A stretch of 36,444 nucleotides of DNA from a virus, in the IMG/VR virus record IMGVR_UViG_3300029448_000150, positions 1 to 36,444 of that record, one strand, 5' to 3'. The number at the start of each line of letters is the position of its first letter. Position 1 is the first letter of the stretch. Below are positions 4,639 through 34,271 of this stretch, piece by piece. Under the pieces are notes generated by a model that saw nothing but the letters and a program-made list of their open reading frames with translations, had not been told where the DNA came from and made no database searches. Position numbers and translations under genes: made by a program.

Positions 4639-4911
4639 TTAGTTTATTATTCTTTTGAATCTAGCGTTAGCTACTTCTTTTTGGTACTTTGTCCTTTTAT
4701 CTGGACCCTCAAATGCTTGTCTAAGTTTTTTTTCTATGTCTGTTTCCCTTTTTGTGTTTTTAGGTTTTCTTTGAGGCACTACAGCAGTTTTCTTTTTTAT
4801 TGAACTTAACTTCTTAATTGCCTTGCCTCCCTTGTACGCTAACTTAATACCGTATGCGCCAGCTCTACCAACAGGTGGTGCAAAATTTAATAGTATTTGT
4901 GGATCTGGCAT
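4639..4911 (-). CDS. Basic hypothetical protein (90 aa)
   Basis: Not recognised. The N-terminus is mildly hydrophobic (PQILLNFAPPVGRAGAYGIK) and the rest is Lys/Arg-rich and helical (KKLSSIKKKTAVVPQRKPK, EKKLRQAFEGPDKR). ATG 4911 abuts the stop of the PEP-CTERM-like gene (one-base overlap), so it is coupled to it. It is the first member, in transcription order, of the cationic cassette. A short amphipathic segment could touch a membrane. Confidence 0.6.
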   Translation of the reverse strand: MPDPQILLNFAPPVGRAGAYGIKLAYKGGKAIKKLSSIKKKTAVVPQRKPKNTKRETDIEKKLRQAFEGPDKRTKYQKEVANARFKRIIN

Positions 4912-5531
4912 TATAATGTACTTCTTATTTTAAAATAACAGAATGCTACAAAGCCCCCAATGATCAATGCTATCCATAATCCTGTGTCACTCATCTCTGG
5001 GATTACTGCACTTAATTCATTGCTATAAATTTGACTGGGTGCATTTACACGAACTGCCATTGTTCCCATTGTATTCGGAGTAAAGGATGCAAATACAGCA
5101 GTGTAAGTAGTTTCACCCGCTAGTGTTATTGTTCCTTGAAACGCTTGGCTTTCTCTTTCAAAACCTTGAAAAGTATTTTCCTGACCACCGCCAAATCCTA
5201 TTCCTGCACCATCATTGAACGCCCAAGGCTCATCAATAATTAGATTAGCTTCAGGGTTCTGGTATATTAGTAAGGATGTATCCGTTACCCCGTTGGTTAA
5301 TTTACTGGAATAATTGTTAAATTCAAAGTCCCCAGCAGTACTTGTAGTAAAGACCAGTGGCTCGTAGTAAGTAACTCCGCCCTCTGGATTAAAATCCTGT
5401 ACAGCATTAGTTTCATCAATGTTTACTATTAGATCGTAGACTACACTGTTTAACTGTATTGTACCCCAAGCTAAAGATGCAGATAGCAATGCAGCTAACG
5501 GGTATTTTATTTTTTGAAGATGGAGGTGCAT
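4911..5531 (-). CDS. Secreted protein with PEP-CTERM-like C-terminal sorting signal (206 aa)
   Basis: Residues 1-23 look like a signal peptide: basic HLQKIKY, then a hydrophobic PLAALLSASLAWG core. The middle is beta-rich and Asn/Gly/Thr-rich, with DTSLLIYQNP (residues 84-93) and a later TITLAGETTYTAVFASFTPN stretch. These resemble exported bacterial PEP-CTERM/pre-peptidase-like beta domains. The C-terminus has the tripartite sorting layout: IPEMSDTG (177-184), a hydrophobic segment (about 185-200), then basic KIRS. In exosortase systems PEP-TM-Arg tails are processed at the membrane. Such a signal on a phage protein is unusual. It could instead be a plain C-terminal anchor. The gene sits in the lysis/membrane block; the start ATG 5531 overlaps the 54-aa TM gene. 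Confidence 0.65.
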   Translation of the reverse strand: MHLHLQKIKYPLAALLSASLAWGTIQLNSVVYDLIVNIDETNAVQDFNPEGGVTYYEPLVFTTSTAGDFEFNNYSSKLTNGVTDTSLLIYQNPEANLIIDEPWAFNDGAGIGFGGGQENTFQGFERESQAFQGTITLAGETTYTAVFASFTPNTMGTMAVRVNAPSQIYSNELSAVIPEMSDTGLWIALIIGGFVAFCYFKIRSTL

Positions 5532-5671
5532 ATTGAGGCGAACTCTTTAAACATTTTTGATAGTATATTGTTCTTCGGAAGAAACATAAACACTATTGAT
5601 ATTATACCAATGTATGCAAATAGCATACCCAGTAGGTTGTCCTTATAGTTATCTATTAAGTACTGTATCAT
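5507..5671 (-). CDS. Small single-TM membrane protein (54 aa)
   Basis: From ATG 5671 it encodes MIQYLIDNYKDNLLGMLFAY, then IGIISIVFMF, followed by LPKNN and an amphipathic tail. One clear membrane segment spans about residues 13-31. The ATG overlaps the stop of the acidic 278-aa gene (ATGA) and the frame ends 25 nt inside the PEP-CTERM-like gene, a typical coupled lysis-block layout. It could be a holin/antiholin or spanin-like component, but no family motif is visible. Confidence 0.6.
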   Translation of the reverse strand: MIQYLIDNYKDNLLGMLFAYIGIISIVFMFLPKNNILSKMFKEFASICTSIFKK

Positions 5672-6504
5672 TGTTGCCTTTCTGGACCCTCTGGTGAAAC
5701 CTGTACTATGTCTGGATCAATTACTGGAACTTCTGCACTTGGCACAGGTTCTGCTGAATTAGAGGGTTTTGTTTCCTGTTGCGTTTCTTGTTGTTCCTGT
5801 TGTTCTTCCTGTTGTGACTCATCTCCTGTACTTTCCTCTTGTGTTTCTTCTCTGGATTCATCACTTGAATTATTATCTTCTTGAGTACTTTCCTTTGCCT
5901 CTTCCCCCTGAGCCGTTTCTTTATCTTGTTTAGTCTCTTCAGATTTCTCTGCCCCTTTTTCATTGGACTCATTTTCTTGAGTGCTGCCAGCAGCTTTGTT
6001 CTGGGACTTATTTTCCTGACTGCTGGATTCCTTGGGGCTTTCTGACTTGGGTTCAGTGTGTGCTACCTTGGCTTCAGCTTTGGCTACCTCTGCCTTTACC
6101 TCAGCTACCTTAGCTTGCATTACCCCTTGCCCCCATACGTTCACGGCATTGAAGTCCACAAAGTTCTCAACGAACGCAGGGAAACCCAAGCGTTCTTCTA
6201 CAACGTCATTGGCTACACTGGCTACAAAGACCTCAGTTTGATCCACAGCTATGTTTGTCTGCGTTACAGCAGCTGTGCTTACAGCGACAGTGCCAGCAGC
6301 CCCTAGCTGACTTATCTTGTCAACTACAGGTAAATCCTTAATTCTACCTAGAAGCGATTTCTTAGCCCTGTTAGCACCGTCTCTAGCGGAGCTAAGAGCT
6401 TTTTCAGCATCTTCCCTAGAAGAGCCAACGCTTTTTGAGCCGAGGACTTCATTAAGAGAATCGCGGAGTTCAGAGAGTTTTTGTTTAGCAGCTTTGTGAT
6501 CCAT
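5668..6504 (-). CDS. Acidic, partly disordered protein of the lysis/membrane block (278 aa)
   Basis: The N-terminal 60 residues are helical and charged (DHKAAKQKLSELRDSLNEV, KALSSARDGANRAKK). A hydrophobic/Ala stretch follows (QLGAAGTVAVSTAAVTQTNI), then a short ordered region (RLGFPAFVENFVDFNAVNVWG). The last half is a Glu/Gln/Ser/Lys-rich low-complexity tail (for example EEQQEQQETQQETK) ending EGPERQQ. I prefer ATG 6504 as start; the frame is open upstream to 6534 but only a TTG is available there, and no Shine-Dalgarno precedes 6504. A zinc-ribbon frame overlaps the start. Function unknown. The disordered acidic tail contrasts with the basic genes downstream. Confidence 0.65.
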   Translation of the reverse strand: MDHKAAKQKLSELRDSLNEVLGSKSVGSSREDAEKALSSARDGANRAKKSLLGRIKDLPVVDKISQLGAAGTVAVSTAAVTQTNIAVDQTEVFVASVANDVVEERLGFPAFVENFVDFNAVNVWGQGVMQAKVAEVKAEVAKAEAKVAHTEPKSESPKESSSQENKSQNKAAGSTQENESNEKGAEKSEETKQDKETAQGEEAKESTQEDNNSSDESREETQEESTGDESQQEEQQEQQETQQETKPSNSAEPVPSAEVPVIDPDIVQVSPEGPERQQ

Positions 6505-22913: not shown

Positions 22914-23288
22914 ATGACTAAACTAATACTAGCAATAGCTATCATAGAAAGTTCACTGAACCCCAAAGCAATTGGGGACGGTGGAAAAGCCGTGGGGATT
23001 ATGCAAATACATCCCTGCGTTATAACTGATGTAAACTACTTCTGTAAAAGTAATTATAAAAACTCTGACAGAATAGATACAGAAAAAAGTTTCGAGATAT
23101 GTCAAAAGTACTTAACGTACTGGGGCTCAGTCTACGAAGAACGCACTGCATTAAAATGCACAGCGGAAGTGTACGCCAAGATATGGAACGGTGGTCCTTT
23201 CGGTTGGAAAAAAGAAGGTGCAGTAAAAGAACGTCTTGACCGATACTGGTTCAAGGTACAACAAGAACTAAATAGATTACAAAAATAA
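22914..23288 (+). CDS. Lytic transglycosylase/goose-lysozyme-type endolysin (124 aa)
   Basis: The lysozyme-like SLT core is clear: ESSLNPKAIGDGGKAVGIMQ with catalytic Glu12 in IIESS and the conserved GxAxGIMQI element, then TYWGSVYEERTAL and AKIWNGGPFGW (the usual 'YNGG' position). It cleaves the peptidoglycan glycan strand. At 124 residues it is a bare catalytic domain. The hydrophobic start (TKLILAIAII) is part of the fold's first helix rather than an obvious signal peptide. Unusually it lies in the early region, behind its own promoter and palindrome, far from the membrane genes of the late operon. Confidence 0.8.
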   Translation: MTKLILAIAIIESSLNPKAIGDGGKAVGIMQIHPCVITDVNYFCKSNYKNSDRIDTEKSFEICQKYLTYWGSVYEERTALKCTAEVYAKIWNGGPFGWKKEGAVKERLDRYWFKVQQELNRLQK

Positions 23289-29089: not shown

Positions 29090-29119
29090 AGTCCGCGCTC
29101 ACAAGGCGCGGGCTTTTTT
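29090..29119. terminator. Bidirectional terminator at the convergence of early and late units
   Basis: A 9-bp stem (29090-29098 with 29106-29114) with loop of seven is flanked by T-run on the plus side (29114-29119) and an A-run on the other side (29083-29087), so it can stop polymerase in both directions. It overlaps the 3' end of the giant minus gene. Confidence 0.8.
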
Positions 29120-32100
29120 ATATCCCCAACATATCCCTCGTTATACCGATGGGCTCTGGATTCACAGCTTGGAATGGATCTGGTAAGAAAAACAACTTAC
29201 CTTCGCGTTGCATACGCTTCTTCATGAATCTTATTTCTCTGTCTCTTTTGTACTCCCTTGCTTCTGGGGACACGTACTGCAACGTATCGTACAACGGCAG
29301 TGTTCTTTGGAACTTGGATTTCAGGCTTCTCTCCATTAAGGATCCTTCAGCTTCAAACAAATTAAAGAATGCGTCCGTGGAATCCTTCAAAGTAGTTAGA
29401 GGAGCTGGTGCAGCAAAATCAAACATAGATTCACCGTACCCTTCGAACTGCCCTTTGTACAGGAAGTACTTATTGATACCCGCTAGACGCACAGTGGAGT
29501 TAAACATATAATCCGACCAGTACCCAAGCCTACCTGCTATTAGATCCTTTAGTAAATCAATAGGTACACCGAGCATCAAGAAGTACGCTAGTAATCTTCC
29601 TAATCTTACGGATGCTTGGGCTCTAATCTTTGCACTCTCAGCCTTCGTCTTACCTTTGTCTGGTCCAAACATATCATTCAGTGCAATATTCCTAGCAGTA
29701 TTGAACTGCACAATCATAAAGGACTTCATGGTATAAAGCATTCTAGCATTTGGATGCTGGGTAGCAGCCAACGGTAGTCTTAATTGCGATAAAGGCTGAT
29801 TAACTAGAAGTTTGGATACAAGCACATCGGCTACAGCTTGATGCTGTCTCTTTGTTCTAGCCTTTGGATCCGCCTTCAGTGCAGTAAAGAACTCCGCCCT
29901 AGCATTCGGGGATACAATGGACGGGCTAAGGAAAGTTGCAATCTCAGCTTCCATCTTCTTGTGCTGCTTGGAGCTCTGGAACTGCTTCTTTAGTGTACCA
30001 TCCGTATTGAAGCCGTTGGATAGACGCTTGTACCTGCGGTAATTAGCATCCATTGTAGTGTTCTTCATTATTCTATCCAGAGTCCTGAACCCAGTAAGTG
30101 TCAGTCCTGTATCAATAATCTTCTTGAAGGCGTTCTTGTCATTCTGGAAGTTCTCCTCGAATACTCTATCCGTATCTATAAGTTCCCTTATATCGAACTC
30201 CTTGTTCCTGAACATGGATCCCATTGTATTAAAGAATCCATTGTCGTACGCAATGAAAGGCATATCGTACAACTGTGACATAGTTGATGTAAATTCTGTA
30301 AGTAGAGAGAAGTAACTGAACTGCCTTGCCCAACGAAGTGCAGTCATCTCCTGCGCTGTATTCGCCATTAGTGCTTTTGTTATCTGCGGTAAAGTATCAA
30401 AGAGTCTTTCTTGGTTTACTTCATCCTGCGTACTAGGATCATTCTTTAGTTGCTGTACAACTAACCCCAGTTCCGAAGTAGGATCAAAGTCAAAAGAAAC
30501 CCTGCCCTGTACGGATTGAGGTTGGACGGCTCTGTTACCCATGAACTTCGCAGTCTCAATGGAGTTCGTCATATCTATAATGTACCTAGCTAGAGCCTCA
30601 GTAGGAGGAACATAGGAATCAATGTCCGAGGAATCAATTAATTCTATTACTCTGGATTCCATTGGACTCGCACCCTTCTTGGGTTTAAGCGTTCCATCCG
30701 TCAAAATCTTTTGAATGAACAACTCTTCTTCTAAAGTATTTTTTTCTATAGGAGGTATAGGGTCAGGTCTTTTCCCTTTTTGTATATTGTACACAAACCC
30801 TTCTTTTTGTTGTACCTTAGCAAGTACTTCCTGAGCTTTCGTCATTGTTGGAACAGTAGCTATAAGAGAAGTATCGCCATTTGCATCCGTAGCTATAACT
30901 TCGTAAACTGTTTTCTCGTGCTTTGCACGCCTTTCATTTTCTTTTCGTACAGCACCGTCAATCGTACGAACCTCGAACCCGTACTTACGCAAGAACTTCA
31001 CCTTTCCGTCCTTGGTTAAATACCTAGGAAAGTAATTCTGCCTGTTGCCTATCTCTAATCTAGTTGCAGCCTCCGCGTACATCTCATCCAGCATAAATCT
31101 AATGGATGTATACTGATTAAGAAGGTTGTATTTAATTAGGAGTTTAGTTCTCTCTTCCCCTAGAGCTTTTTGTTCTTCCTCGGAGAACCTTGAGTTCTCC
31201 TCGTTTGGACTAAATGATATTAAGGACCATAGTCTTTCGTAGTCCTTCTTGTTTTTTTTCTTTATGGAATTAAATCCTGCACTAAAGCGTTGAATCATTC
31301 TGCCCCTACTAAAGATTAAATAATCTTTTCTCTTGATGAAGTTCGTAAAGACTGTTTCTAGGCTTGGGTGTATATCCGCTAGAAGCTGACCGATGGGTAC
31401 TAGGAACTTGGAGAATACTCCTACGCCCTTCTCTGGTCCCTCAAGATCCACCTTATCTATATTCTTTGTATCCTCCTCCACAGGTGAGTTACCATCCGCT
31501 AGTTTTCTTAAATCCCTAGTTAAATCATTTGCGCTCAAAGAAACACCCTCTGTGTTCTGCGAATACATGGATCTAACTTGGTCAATAAGTTTTTGATTTA
31601 CTGGTCTAGCCTCTGGATCCACTTGCTGTAAAAGATTCACGGAATCCAAGAACATATTTGCTACAGAGGAATCCACCAGAGCTTCCTTATCAAATATTCT
31701 AGCTACGTACGCTTGAACATCCTTGATGAACTTCTTAACTACTGTAAATGCTGGACCAGATGTAAGTACTCTTCTGCTTCCGCTGTCCTTAAATTCTTCA
31801 GATATACCTCCGTACGAGAACTGCTCTACAATTGCCCTAATGTACTCAGCACCTCTTAGGTAATCAGTGCTTGAACCGAACTTAAATCCTTGTCCACCGT
31901 ACGCTTCATCAAGCCTATTCTTTTGCTCCTTGGTTAAAAGTTTGCTTAGTTTTTTATATATTGGTCCATCCTCACCTTTAGCTACTATTGAAGTAATAGC
32001 GTGTATTAGCTCATGGCGCATGAGTCTATCTATAGCATTGGTGTTTATTTCTCCTGTACCAGAGAATGCATCCAAGTGTATAACTATGGTATGCTTACTG

Positions 32101-34271
32101 GGAGAATAGTATCCAGCGGTTCTTGATCCTGCTGGTGCACGTTGTTTAAACAAAATCTTTAAATACTTACCGCCCTGATCCCTTTCAGACTTAGTCATAA
32201 AGATTTTACCCTTTAGCATAAGTTTTTTGTTTCGTACAACGTACTCTTGTTTAGCCTGTACTTCATCTAGACCAAATTGTACCCCGTACTTCCTAAGAAT
32301 ATATTTAATAATAGTGGAGTTTATTATACCTGACTCCGCTGTTTGCTCAGGGATTGGATCCAGAACTACATCTGGGTTTACTTCTGTGCTTGGTCCTTCA
32401 CCAACGAGTTCAGCCAAGTTCTCAAGCATCTCCGCTTTTGTTTTAGCGAATGCAGGAAATACAGAAGAACCGTCCTCATCAACTCCTTGAGAAAAGTTTG
32501 ACATGGTTTCATCCACTTGGTCATTGCTTAACACGTTTCCGTTGGAGTCCGATAAACGGAAGTTCCCTAAAAAATCCCTAGTAAAAAATAAATCTCTTCC
32601 CTGAGCTAGTACTTTGAATACTGGATTCTCGGATGCGCTCAATGGTAGCTTTGTGGACTTGGACTTCTTGCCACGAGCAACTTGAACGGGTTTCAAATTA
32701 TTTAAAGCATCCGCTTCTGGCTCTGGGGCAGGTTCAGGAGTTGGTTCTGGAGTTGGTTCGGGAGTTGGTTCGGGAGTTGGTTCGGGCTCCGTTTCAGGTG
32801 CAGTCTCTGGCTCTGGCTCAGGTGCTGTCTCCTCCTCCGCAGTAGTTTCCTCCTCCGCAGTAGTTTCCTCCTCTGAATCCGTTTCCTCTTCTTCAGTAGC
32901 TTCTTCCTCTGGAGTAGTCTCTGGTTCGGGCTCAGGGGTAGGTTCCTGTTCAGGTGCAGTTTCAGGTTCTGTTTCTGGTGCAGTCCCTGCATCCGTTACG
33001 GATTCCTGTACTAGTACTTCACCCTCTGGCAAGTACTGCCCTGTAAATTCACTTCTAAATACTTTTTCAGCCTCCTCTTTATTACTAGCAATAATAGGTA
33101 CAGTTGTTGTTTCCCCAGTACCAAAGGATGTAAAGGTTATATTAAATACTCTTGCGTCCTTAGAACCCTCATCAACAGCAGTGGGTTCTAGATCTCTTTC
33201 ACCTCTTGCGATACGTACAGTATCCCCTGCTCCAGATGCAATACCACCCACTGCAAATCCAACAGTGAACTCCGTTATTCTTCGAGCAAGTGCATCACCA
33301 GTAATAACATTTCTATCCGAATCATATAGGTTCTTCGCTAGTAAATCCAGAATTGCGCCATCACCCAATGATTCCTGTAAGCCCTCCGCTGTACCACTTT
33401 TAAAAGCATTCTTGGAAGCAGAACCAAGAGCTTTTTTTAAAGTTCCTTCTGGGACTGCTTTGCCTAGTTTTAATCTATTTAATACAGTTTGCAGTGGTCC
33501 TTTCATTCCAGACACGTACTTAAATACAGTAGCGTCCAAAGCACCTGTTGTTGCACCGTATACTATGGATCCATCCGTAACCTTTTTGGCTTCTGCATCG
33601 GACATTTCATATATCTTTTTGCCCAATGTATTTTCTGCATCATCAATGAACTCCGATGTTCTGTTAAAGAAAGCTGTACCAAAAACAGCAGCAGTACCAG
33701 CAGCTACACCAGCAAAAGGATTCGCAGTAGCTAGAGTTGTAGCACCACCAACCGCCTTAGCTGCTGCTGCGTACCCAACAAATTGACCTAGACCCCTAGA
33801 AACAGAGGAGACAAATGCACCGAATCCAGTTTTACCGAAGTTCGGATCCGCATTTAGTTTCTGTGGTAGGGTTTCATCGAATACTTTGGAGACTCTCTCA
33901 GCGTGCTTGTACGCACTCTTCTGCCTTTCTAGGCGTTCTTGGTTGCGCTTTACGTAATCATCGTACGCCTGTTGTCTAGCCCTCGGTGTTTTGTTGAACT
34001 CCTCTTCACTAAGAGTGGGGTTCGCATAAAAATCAGCAGCTACATCCACTGCACCCTCGTAAGTTTTGCCAAAGGTTTCAGAGAAACCAAGCAACCCTTG
34101 CTTGAACACTTCCGCAAATACATTACCGCTGGAAGCTCTTTGTGTAAAACGGTTCCTGTACACAGGATACCTATTTAAAAACTCGTACGTAAGTTTGTTG
34201 TTATCTACGTCCTTGTACTGCGGAAACTTATTTTTTACCGCTGCAGCGAATGATTCTACTGTTTCTGGCAT
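29118..34271 (-). CDS. Giant ejection-type internal virion protein with HExxH protease motif (1717 aa)
   Basis: 1717 residues. The N-terminal 120 are helical (KNKFPQYKDVDNNKLTYEFL). Residues about 155-210 are Ala/Gly/Val-rich and hydrophobic. An acidic/Pro-rich linker follows (about 430-520, E/T/P repeats). The HELIH motif is at 753-757, with a plausible third ligand in GAEYIRAIVEQF (about 809-816), consistent with a zinc metalloprotease. The long helical C-terminal half fits ejection proteins (T7 gp16-type in position). It probably crosses the envelope during DNA injection and may cut cell wall or protein on the way. It ends at the bidirectional terminator. Start ATG 34271 is well placed after the 194-aa gene. 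Confidence 0.75.
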   Translation of the reverse strand: MPETVESFAAAVKNKFPQYKDVDNNKLTYEFLNRYPVYRNRFTQRASSGNVFAEVFKQGLLGFSETFGKTYEGAVDVAADFYANPTLSEEEFNKTPRARQQAYDDYVKRNQERLERQKSAYKHAERVSKVFDETLPQKLNADPNFGKTGFGAFVSSVSRGLGQFVGYAAAAKAVGGATTLATANPFAGVAAGTAAVFGTAFFNRTSEFIDDAENTLGKKIYEMSDAEAKKVTDGSIVYGATTGALDATVFKYVSGMKGPLQTVLNRLKLGKAVPEGTLKKALGSASKNAFKSGTAEGLQESLGDGAILDLLAKNLYDSDRNVITGDALARRITEFTVGFAVGGIASGAGDTVRIARGERDLEPTAVDEGSKDARVFNITFTSFGTGETTTVPIIASNKEEAEKVFRSEFTGQYLPEGEVLVQESVTDAGTAPETEPETAPEQEPTPEPEPETTPEEEATEEEETDSEEETTAEEETTAEEETAPEPEPETAPETEPEPTPEPTPEPTPEPTPEPAPEPEADALNNLKPVQVARGKKSKSTKLPLSASENPVFKVLAQGRDLFFTRDFLGNFRLSDSNGNVLSNDQVDETMSNFSQGVDEDGSSVFPAFAKTKAEMLENLAELVGEGPSTEVNPDVVLDPIPEQTAESGIINSTIIKYILRKYGVQFGLDEVQAKQEYVVRNKKLMLKGKIFMTKSERDQGGKYLKILFKQRAPAGSRTAGYYSPSKHTIVIHLDAFSGTGEINTNAIDRLMRHELIHAITSIVAKGEDGPIYKKLSKLLTKEQKNRLDEAYGGQGFKFGSSTDYLRGAEYIRAIVEQFSYGGISEEFKDSGSRRVLTSGPAFTVVKKFIKDVQAYVARIFDKEALVDSSVANMFLDSVNLLQQVDPEARPVNQKLIDQVRSMYSQNTEGVSLSANDLTRDLRKLADGNSPVEEDTKNIDKVDLEGPEKGVGVFSKFLVPIGQLLADIHPSLETVFTNFIKRKDYLIFSRGRMIQRFSAGFNSIKKKNKKDYERLWSLISFSPNEENSRFSEEEQKALGEERTKLLIKYNLLNQYTSIRFMLDEMYAEAATRLEIGNRQNYFPRYLTKDGKVKFLRKYGFEVRTIDGAVRKENERRAKHEKTVYEVIATDANGDTSLIATVPTMTKAQEVLAKVQQKEGFVYNIQKGKRPDPIPPIEKNTLEEELFIQKILTDGTLKPKKGASPMESRVIELIDSSDIDSYVPPTEALARYIIDMTNSIETAKFMGNRAVQPQSVQGRVSFDFDPTSELGLVVQQLKNDPSTQDEVNQERLFDTLPQITKALMANTAQEMTALRWARQFSYFSLLTEFTSTMSQLYDMPFIAYDNGFFNTMGSMFRNKEFDIRELIDTDRVFEENFQNDKNAFKKIIDTGLTLTGFRTLDRIMKNTTMDANYRRYKRLSNGFNTDGTLKKQFQSSKQHKKMEAEIATFLSPSIVSPNARAEFFTALKADPKARTKRQHQAVADVLVSKLLVNQPLSQLRLPLAATQHPNARMLYTMKSFMIVQFNTARNIALNDMFGPDKGKTKAESAKIRAQASVRLGRLLAYFLMLGVPIDLLKDLIAGRLGYWSDYMFNSTVRLAGINKYFLYKGQFEGYGESMFDFAAPAPLTTLKDSTDAFFNLFEAEGSLMERSLKSKFQRTLPLYDTLQYVSPEAREYKRDREIRFMKKRMQREGKLFFLPDPFQAVNPEPIGITRDMLGI
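32731..32790 (-). repeat. Tandem 12-bp repeat (Pro-Glu/Thr linker)
   Basis: Five imperfect 12-base units from GGTTCAGGAGTT to GGTTCGGGCTCC encode the repeated PEPT of the linker. Likely length-variable. Confidence 0.85.
32830..32865 (-). repeat. Tandem 18-bp repeat (Glu/Thr linker)
   Basis: Two exact 18-base units plus a partial third encode repeated EETTAE in the same acidic linker. Confidence 0.8.

Follow-up and report, generated by a model that had tools for sequence, protein, structure and literature searches.

A fixed phage locus with interchangeable PEP-CTERM-like tails suggests borrowing of the host's surface-sorting enzyme

Introduction

The PEP-CTERM/exosortase system is a major route of surface sorting in Gram-negative bacteria, and the roles of many of its substrates are poorly known. 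A signal peptide is present in 97% of classical PEP-CTERM proteins, whose bodies are biased towards low contents of Cys and basic residues and high contents of Thr and Asn (PMC1569441). Exchange of one tag for another within protein families has already been described (PMC3237569). LPXTG/sortase, GlyGly-CTERM/rhombosortase and MYXO-CTERM/myxosortase have in common with the phage tail described here the succession of a motif, a transmembrane (TM) helix and a basic end. No published phage or viral PEP-CTERM protein was found in the literature searched, most subscription papers lying outside it, and such a missing description is not proof of novelty; a paper on viruses and PEP-CTERM (PMC12642866) is about host genes, not phage genes.

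This work concerns one gene, here called the tail gene, of a 36,444-base IMG/VR viral contig which was analysed over its whole length (the window). Its product had been predicted, from the letters alone, to end in a PEP-CTERM-like sorting signal. The tails encoded at this locus resemble the PEP-CTERM domain (TIGR02595 / PF07589) in their C-terminal place, in Pro-Glu(-Pro), in the TM helix and in the basic end, and they share with it the nature of a suffix found on unrelated bodies, one of which is low in Cys, rich in Thr/Asn and has few basic residues. They differ from the PEP-CTERM/exosortase system (EpsH, PF09721) in the fixed phage locus and in the variable third residue of the motif; moreover, the window tail is without an Arg cluster and one of the two protein families at the locus, family B, is without a signal peptide. 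The phage motif is [IV]PE, in contrast to LPXTG, GlyGly or the MYXO Cys.

Results

The tail gene and its product

The 206-aa ORF is read from 5531 to 4911 on the minus strand and the gene is real, the plus-strand reading of the same stretch being stop-rich and thus ruled out (Table 1). All elements quoted in the original prediction are present in its product, MHLHLQKIKYPLAALLSASLAWG...DTSLLIYQ...TITLAGETTYTAVF...IPEMSDTGLWIALIIGGFVAFCYFKIRSTL, once the strand is taken as minus. The signal-like start, read by eye from the sequence, has a basic n-region, HLQKIKY, and a hydrophobic core, PLAALLSASLAWG. The full tail reads IPEMSDTG-LWIALIIGGFVAFCYF-KIRSTL, in which a TM helix of 16 hydrophobic residues (helix 181-205 of the structural model) comes straight after the motif at the C-terminus, and the end has two basic residues only, K and R. 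Against the description of this tail as PEP-CTERM-like, M is found for P and the end has K and R only where an Arg-rich stretch is expected.

Table 1. Coordinates of the tail gene, of the parts of its product and of the neighboring genes in the window
Feature	Position	Strand	Remark
Small Lys-rich protein, downstream of tail gene	4639..4911	minus	
Tail gene (family A), 206 aa, putative exported beta domain and PEP-CTERM-like tail	4911..5531	minus	
Residues 1-25, signal-peptide-like	5457..5531	minus	Sequence reading; model helix 2-27
Residues 28-170, predicted jelly-roll-like beta sandwich	5022..5450	minus	Cys-free, Lys+Arg 2%
Residues 177-184, IPEMSDTG	4980..5003	minus	I177, P178 and E179 invariant in family A
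Residues 185-200, hydrophobic segment LWIALIIGGFVAFCYF	4932..4979	minus	
Residues 201-206, KIRSTL, basic end	4914..4931	minus	Weaker than canonical R/K cluster
54-aa single-TM protein, directly upstream of tail gene	5507..5671	minus	
Acidic Ser/Glu/Gln-rich protein, likely start MDHKAAK...	5668..6504	minus	Same place in relatives
phrog_38283 membrane protein, 134 aa	6568..6972	minus	Synteny anchor

The body of the window protein contains 0% Cys, 11.3% Thr, 9.3% Asn and 2% Lys+Arg, against 0.6, 7.2, 5.5 and 10.9% in 16 other proteins of the window, and the bodies of its family (family A) as a whole have 0 Cys, 11% Thr, 7.5% Asn and 2% Lys+Arg. This is the bias known from PEP-CTERM proteins, with the exception of Ser, which is not raised, and in composition the body fits an exported protein of the PEP-CTERM type. 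The sole Cys of family A, unlike the MYXO Cys, sits within the C-terminal TM and is Ser in many relatives and Thr in some.

The AlphaFold2 model of the window protein (mean pLDDT 66.6, from a 27-sequence alignment) begins with a helix (2-27), continues as a beta sandwich (30-164) and ends in a further helix (181-205). Foldseek placed family A in the beta-sandwich class, next to secreted domains of jelly-roll / CBM / PA14-like type such as TK-SP (3afg), CBM35, Cea1 and Flo1, with TM-scores of only ~0.3 and no sequence match; one 198-aa viral protein was also matched (E 5e-9). We take this predicted likeness as a hint of fold class and not of family membership. Unimolecular spanins have the general layout of a signal sequence, a beta-rich periplasmic domain and a C-terminal TM. 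The window protein has a similar predicted layout and its gene adjoins other membrane genes, so it could be imagined as a u-spanin or another lysis fusogen, its beta domain tethered to the C-terminal TM on one side and to the outer membrane on the other. However, no Cys, and hence no lipobox Cys, is found in the N-terminus or body of any aligned member of family A, and family B is neither beta-spanin-like nor provided with an N-terminal signal, which makes such a function very improbable.

The window protein gave no Pfam, NCBIfam or PHROG match at a useful E-value, and even at E<=10 no family of Pfam (whole protein) or NCBIfam (whole protein and tail alone) was returned. The tail bears a resemblance to the IPTL-CTERM pattern (IPxxSxxG); identity with IPTL-CTERM was rejected, since no NCBIfam model matched. 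Neither the window protein nor its close homologues matched any PEP-CTERM model, so the window protein itself fails formal PEP-CTERM membership by sequence. Its tail has PEM for PEP, an aromatic TM that contains Cys, and two basic residues only, and is best read as a diverged subtype. What speaks for its working in a PEP-CTERM-like way is the locus, the rest of the gene family and the invariant [IV]PE.

The locus

The order phrog_38283 - acidic protein - 54-aa TM protein - tail gene is kept in relatives. The 54-aa TM gene, which was found at the locus in all relatives listed, shares its last 25 nt with the start of the tail gene. The acidic protein upstream of it is of low complexity and matches no known family. 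Terminase, portal and capsid of the window match those of phage C75C1 at 65-72%, and the product of its phrog_38283 gene matches that of C75C1 at 54% and that of Verrucomicrobia phage P8625 at 50%, the host of which is Puniceicoccales sp. IMCC8625. The tail gene itself is absent from both C75C1 and P8625, no homologue of the window protein was found in annotated phages, and no exosortase gene was found near the phage tail locus.

Some features elsewhere in the window deserve mention. Versions of one gene (MSYNRLLQSVQVAL...), with similar but not identical protein sequences, are present at both contig ends (3-245 and 35929-36417, minus strand), which may reflect tandem duplication in a circular genome or an assembly junction. 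A 1717-aa protein (29118-34271, minus) has a long Pro/Glu/Thr repeat (EPEPTPEPTPEPT) and a HELIH metallopeptidase-like motif (MRHELIHAITS). A small SLT/lysozyme-like protein (22914-23288, plus) is encoded in the early plus-strand region, away from the run of membrane genes next to the tail gene.

Invariance of [IV]PE

A direct scan yielded 11 close homologues of the window protein and a further set which matches its last 30 residues alone. The latter was fetched by the tail pattern FVAFCYFK and therefore overstates the conservation of the tail, for which reason we resampled the locus by neighbors and by body, in ways blind to the tail: through the phrog_38283 neighbor, through the family B body and through the 54-aa TM neighbor. 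In these samples the tail proved variable and PE constant, and the idea that FVAFCYFK is strongly conserved was rejected. The 54-aa neighbor led to 80 loci, in 79 of which an ORF follows, one being clipped by the contig end, and all complete following ORFs end in [IV]PE, a TM and Lys/Arg. When the tail-blind samples are pooled, this ending is present in 89/89 distinct proteins, the third motif residue giving PEP in 63, PEL in 10, PEM in 7, PES in 6 and PEV, PEQ and PEA in one each. Within family A the window has PEM and its homologues PEP, PEL, PEM or PEV. The possibility that Pro-Glu varies freely among homologues, which would have spoken against a sorting signal, is thereby refuted, though the third residue varies.

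The fetched phage contigs contain 171 ORFs with a TM at the C-terminus; [VI]PE stands right before this TM in 82, all of which are the tail gene, and in none of the remaining 89. The motif thus precedes the C-terminal TM of the tail gene more often than by chance, and the tripartite tail of [IV]PE, TM and basic end is a constant feature of this place in the genome.

Two bodies and exchangeable tails

Two unrelated bodies occur at the locus. Family A, the window type, is ~197-206 aa long and keeps 43 invariant columns over 27 sequences with identity down to 40%. Family B is acidic, ~80-125 aa long and mostly starts with MSHE...; its body before the tail has 56-84 aa, a net charge of -7 to -16 and 1-4 basic residues, keeps Y-x-W-x-E-x-D-Y-R, and shows no N-terminal hydrophobic segment which could serve as a signal peptide. 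Five members of family B (L217, L220, L233, L238 and L239) continue for 25-33 Lys-rich residues beyond the PEP-type tail, ending ...IYNKLTK-like, and because of this addition their TM is not at the very C-terminus.

The lack of any match to a PEP-CTERM model, which would have spoken against the prediction, is true of the window protein together with its close homologues but not of family B. One of its proteins (L244) lies above the cut-offs of both models (PF07589, 21.8 bits against >=20.7; TIGR02595, 21.4 bits against >=16), two (L040 and L042) lie slightly under them, and at E<=1 PF07589 finds 16 of the 24 representatives of the family. Among the many textbook PEP-CTERM tails of family B are VPEPSTYALLAGFAVLIFTMIKRRNK (L244), IPEPSTYVLFAGFAVLLYTLIKRRK (L240), VPEPSFYGLVLGFSLLLLTMIKRRK (L207) and VPEPAFIGLFMGLCLLTLTLIKRK (L219).

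Tails of one kind are found on both bodies, the FVAF type on 26 proteins of family A and 17 of family B, and the GLxMGLCLLTLTLIKRK type on family B and on two A-like proteins (L320 and L323) with bodies ~45% identical to the window. Within family B, pairs with nearly the same body have different tails: the bodies of L204 and L206 are 99% and their tails 29% identical, the aligned DNA being identical up to GTACCAGAGCC (Val-Pro-Glu-Pro), after which the tails are unrelated, while in L265 and L272 the values are 99% and 18% and DNA identity returns at the ATG of the next gene. These alignments show that whole tails are swapped as cassettes, with the breakpoint right at the PEP codons.

A tail that is the conserved element common to two unrelated bodies, one of just 56-84 aa, and whose subtype varies as if following different sorting enzymes, could also belong to a decoy, that is, a small abundant substrate which occupies the host exosortase late in infection and blocks the maturation of surface proteins or exopolysaccharide, the domain itself mattering little. 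The bodies of both families are, however, well conserved (the invariant columns of A and the motif of B), and the body therefore has a selected job, which makes a decoy improbable.

Candidate hosts

Exosortase (PF09721) is present in 75/103 genomes of Verrucomicrobia of the Opitutales order, often in two or more copies, in 48/101 Rhodobacterales genomes and in 0/32 genomes of the order of the Rickettsiales MAG, order and class names being taken from MAG titles. A profile of the canonical phage tail matches 73/103 genomes of the order to which an Opitutae MAG (G004) belongs, with a best E of 9e-11, and only 7/101 in Rhodobacterales, all of them partial; it would probably match further PEP-CTERM-rich groups outside the orders searched. 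Where loci were fetched, most of the matches displayed form the C-terminal tail of a longer protein that begins in a signal-peptide-like manner. One such tail, VPEPSTYALIAGFAAFLFVAIKRRK of genome G106, shares 18/24 residues with VPEPSTYALLAGFAVLIFTMIKRRNK, host tails having been preselected by similarity. PEP-CTERM proteins of the Opitutales order thus have tails like that of L244 and differ from the phage proteins in being longer and having signal peptides. The top matches of a mixed profile of FVAF tails from both families are PEP-CTERM tails at protein C-termini, such as VPEPSTYGLIGALALGALVAFRRRAKRA, but the B members of the profile themselves carry PEP. The profile of the window tail class matched host tails only near chance, none above it, and no homologue of the family A body was found among 273 genomes of the Opitutales order.

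The same Opitutae MAG holds two exosortases and a phage contig with terminase, portal and capsid 62%, 66% and 59% identical to those of the window. Other relatives of the phage group are binned with Alphaproteobacteria, and MAG binning is unreliable since bins can contain stray phage contigs. On the contig pieces binned in Rhodobacteraceae, Rickettsiales and Sneathiella MAGs (L110, L111 and L112) no PEP-tail gene was found, so that presence of the tail may track host type. CRISPR spacers gave no host link, the short matches in Opitutales genomes lying outside repeat arrays. A verrucomicrobial host is likely for this phage group; if it belongs to the Opitutales order, the objection that no plausible host has an exosortase would not apply.

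Discussion

The fixed-locus gene and its swapped tags suggest that phages borrow the host's surface-sorting enzyme. We consider it probable, if only just, that the phage protein is a substrate of the host exosortase, exported late and recognised through its C-terminal [IV]PE-TM-basic tail. The late timing is judged from the placement of the tail gene among structural genes, and we infer that the protein is exported, recognised and cut by the host exosortase, displayed at the envelope and active at the cell surface late in infection. In family A the signal peptide would direct the jelly-roll domain into the Sec pathway, and the tail would come to rest in the inner membrane, its PE facing the periplasm. 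There the host exosortase would cut at PE and move the domain to the outer envelope or the exopolysaccharide layer. The displayed domain would probably alter the surface, so that competing phages are excluded or the matrix is loosened for release. The short acidic body of family B would have to be translocated tail-first, like N-out/C-in membrane proteins, which is an extra assumption. The window's IPEMSDTG...FVAFCYFKIRSTL would be a diverged subtype, perhaps suited to a different host exosortase.

The strongest competing reading is a plain periplasmic protein anchored in the inner membrane, an exclusion or lysis accessory, whose tail is a stop-transfer anchor in which exosortase has no part, with Pro-Glu serving as a helix cap or turn that came along with the body. 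The absence of a signal peptide in family B is in accordance with such a protein, as are the position of the gene within a late-region run of membrane proteins and the window tail, which is outside all PEP-CTERM models and belongs to a class without a cellular match. In the tail-swapped family B pairs, too, PE was perhaps simply inherited with the body because the breakpoint falls after it. A plain anchor nevertheless leaves unexplained why two unrelated bodies end in [IV]PE, why many relatives have canonical PEP-CTERM tails akin to bacterial exosortase substrates, and why PE is absent from other C-terminal TMs of these phages. We regard it as rather unlikely, and the decoy and u-spanin as less likely still.

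Starting from recognition by a host exosortase, a broader reading, to which we give somewhat less than an even chance, is that a widespread marine phage lineage keeps this locus for an exosortase-sorted envelope protein, swaps of 20-35-residue tails re-aiming it between hosts and the tail subtype tracking the exosortase subtype of the host. The fixed-locus gene with its interchangeable tails would offer natural short substrates for mapping the tails that each exosortase accepts, and it might be of use as a host-prediction marker for uncultured marine phages. It would also let one ask whether phages employ the sorting enzyme of their host to remodel its surface; if so, tail swapping would be a phage strategy of borrowing that enzyme.
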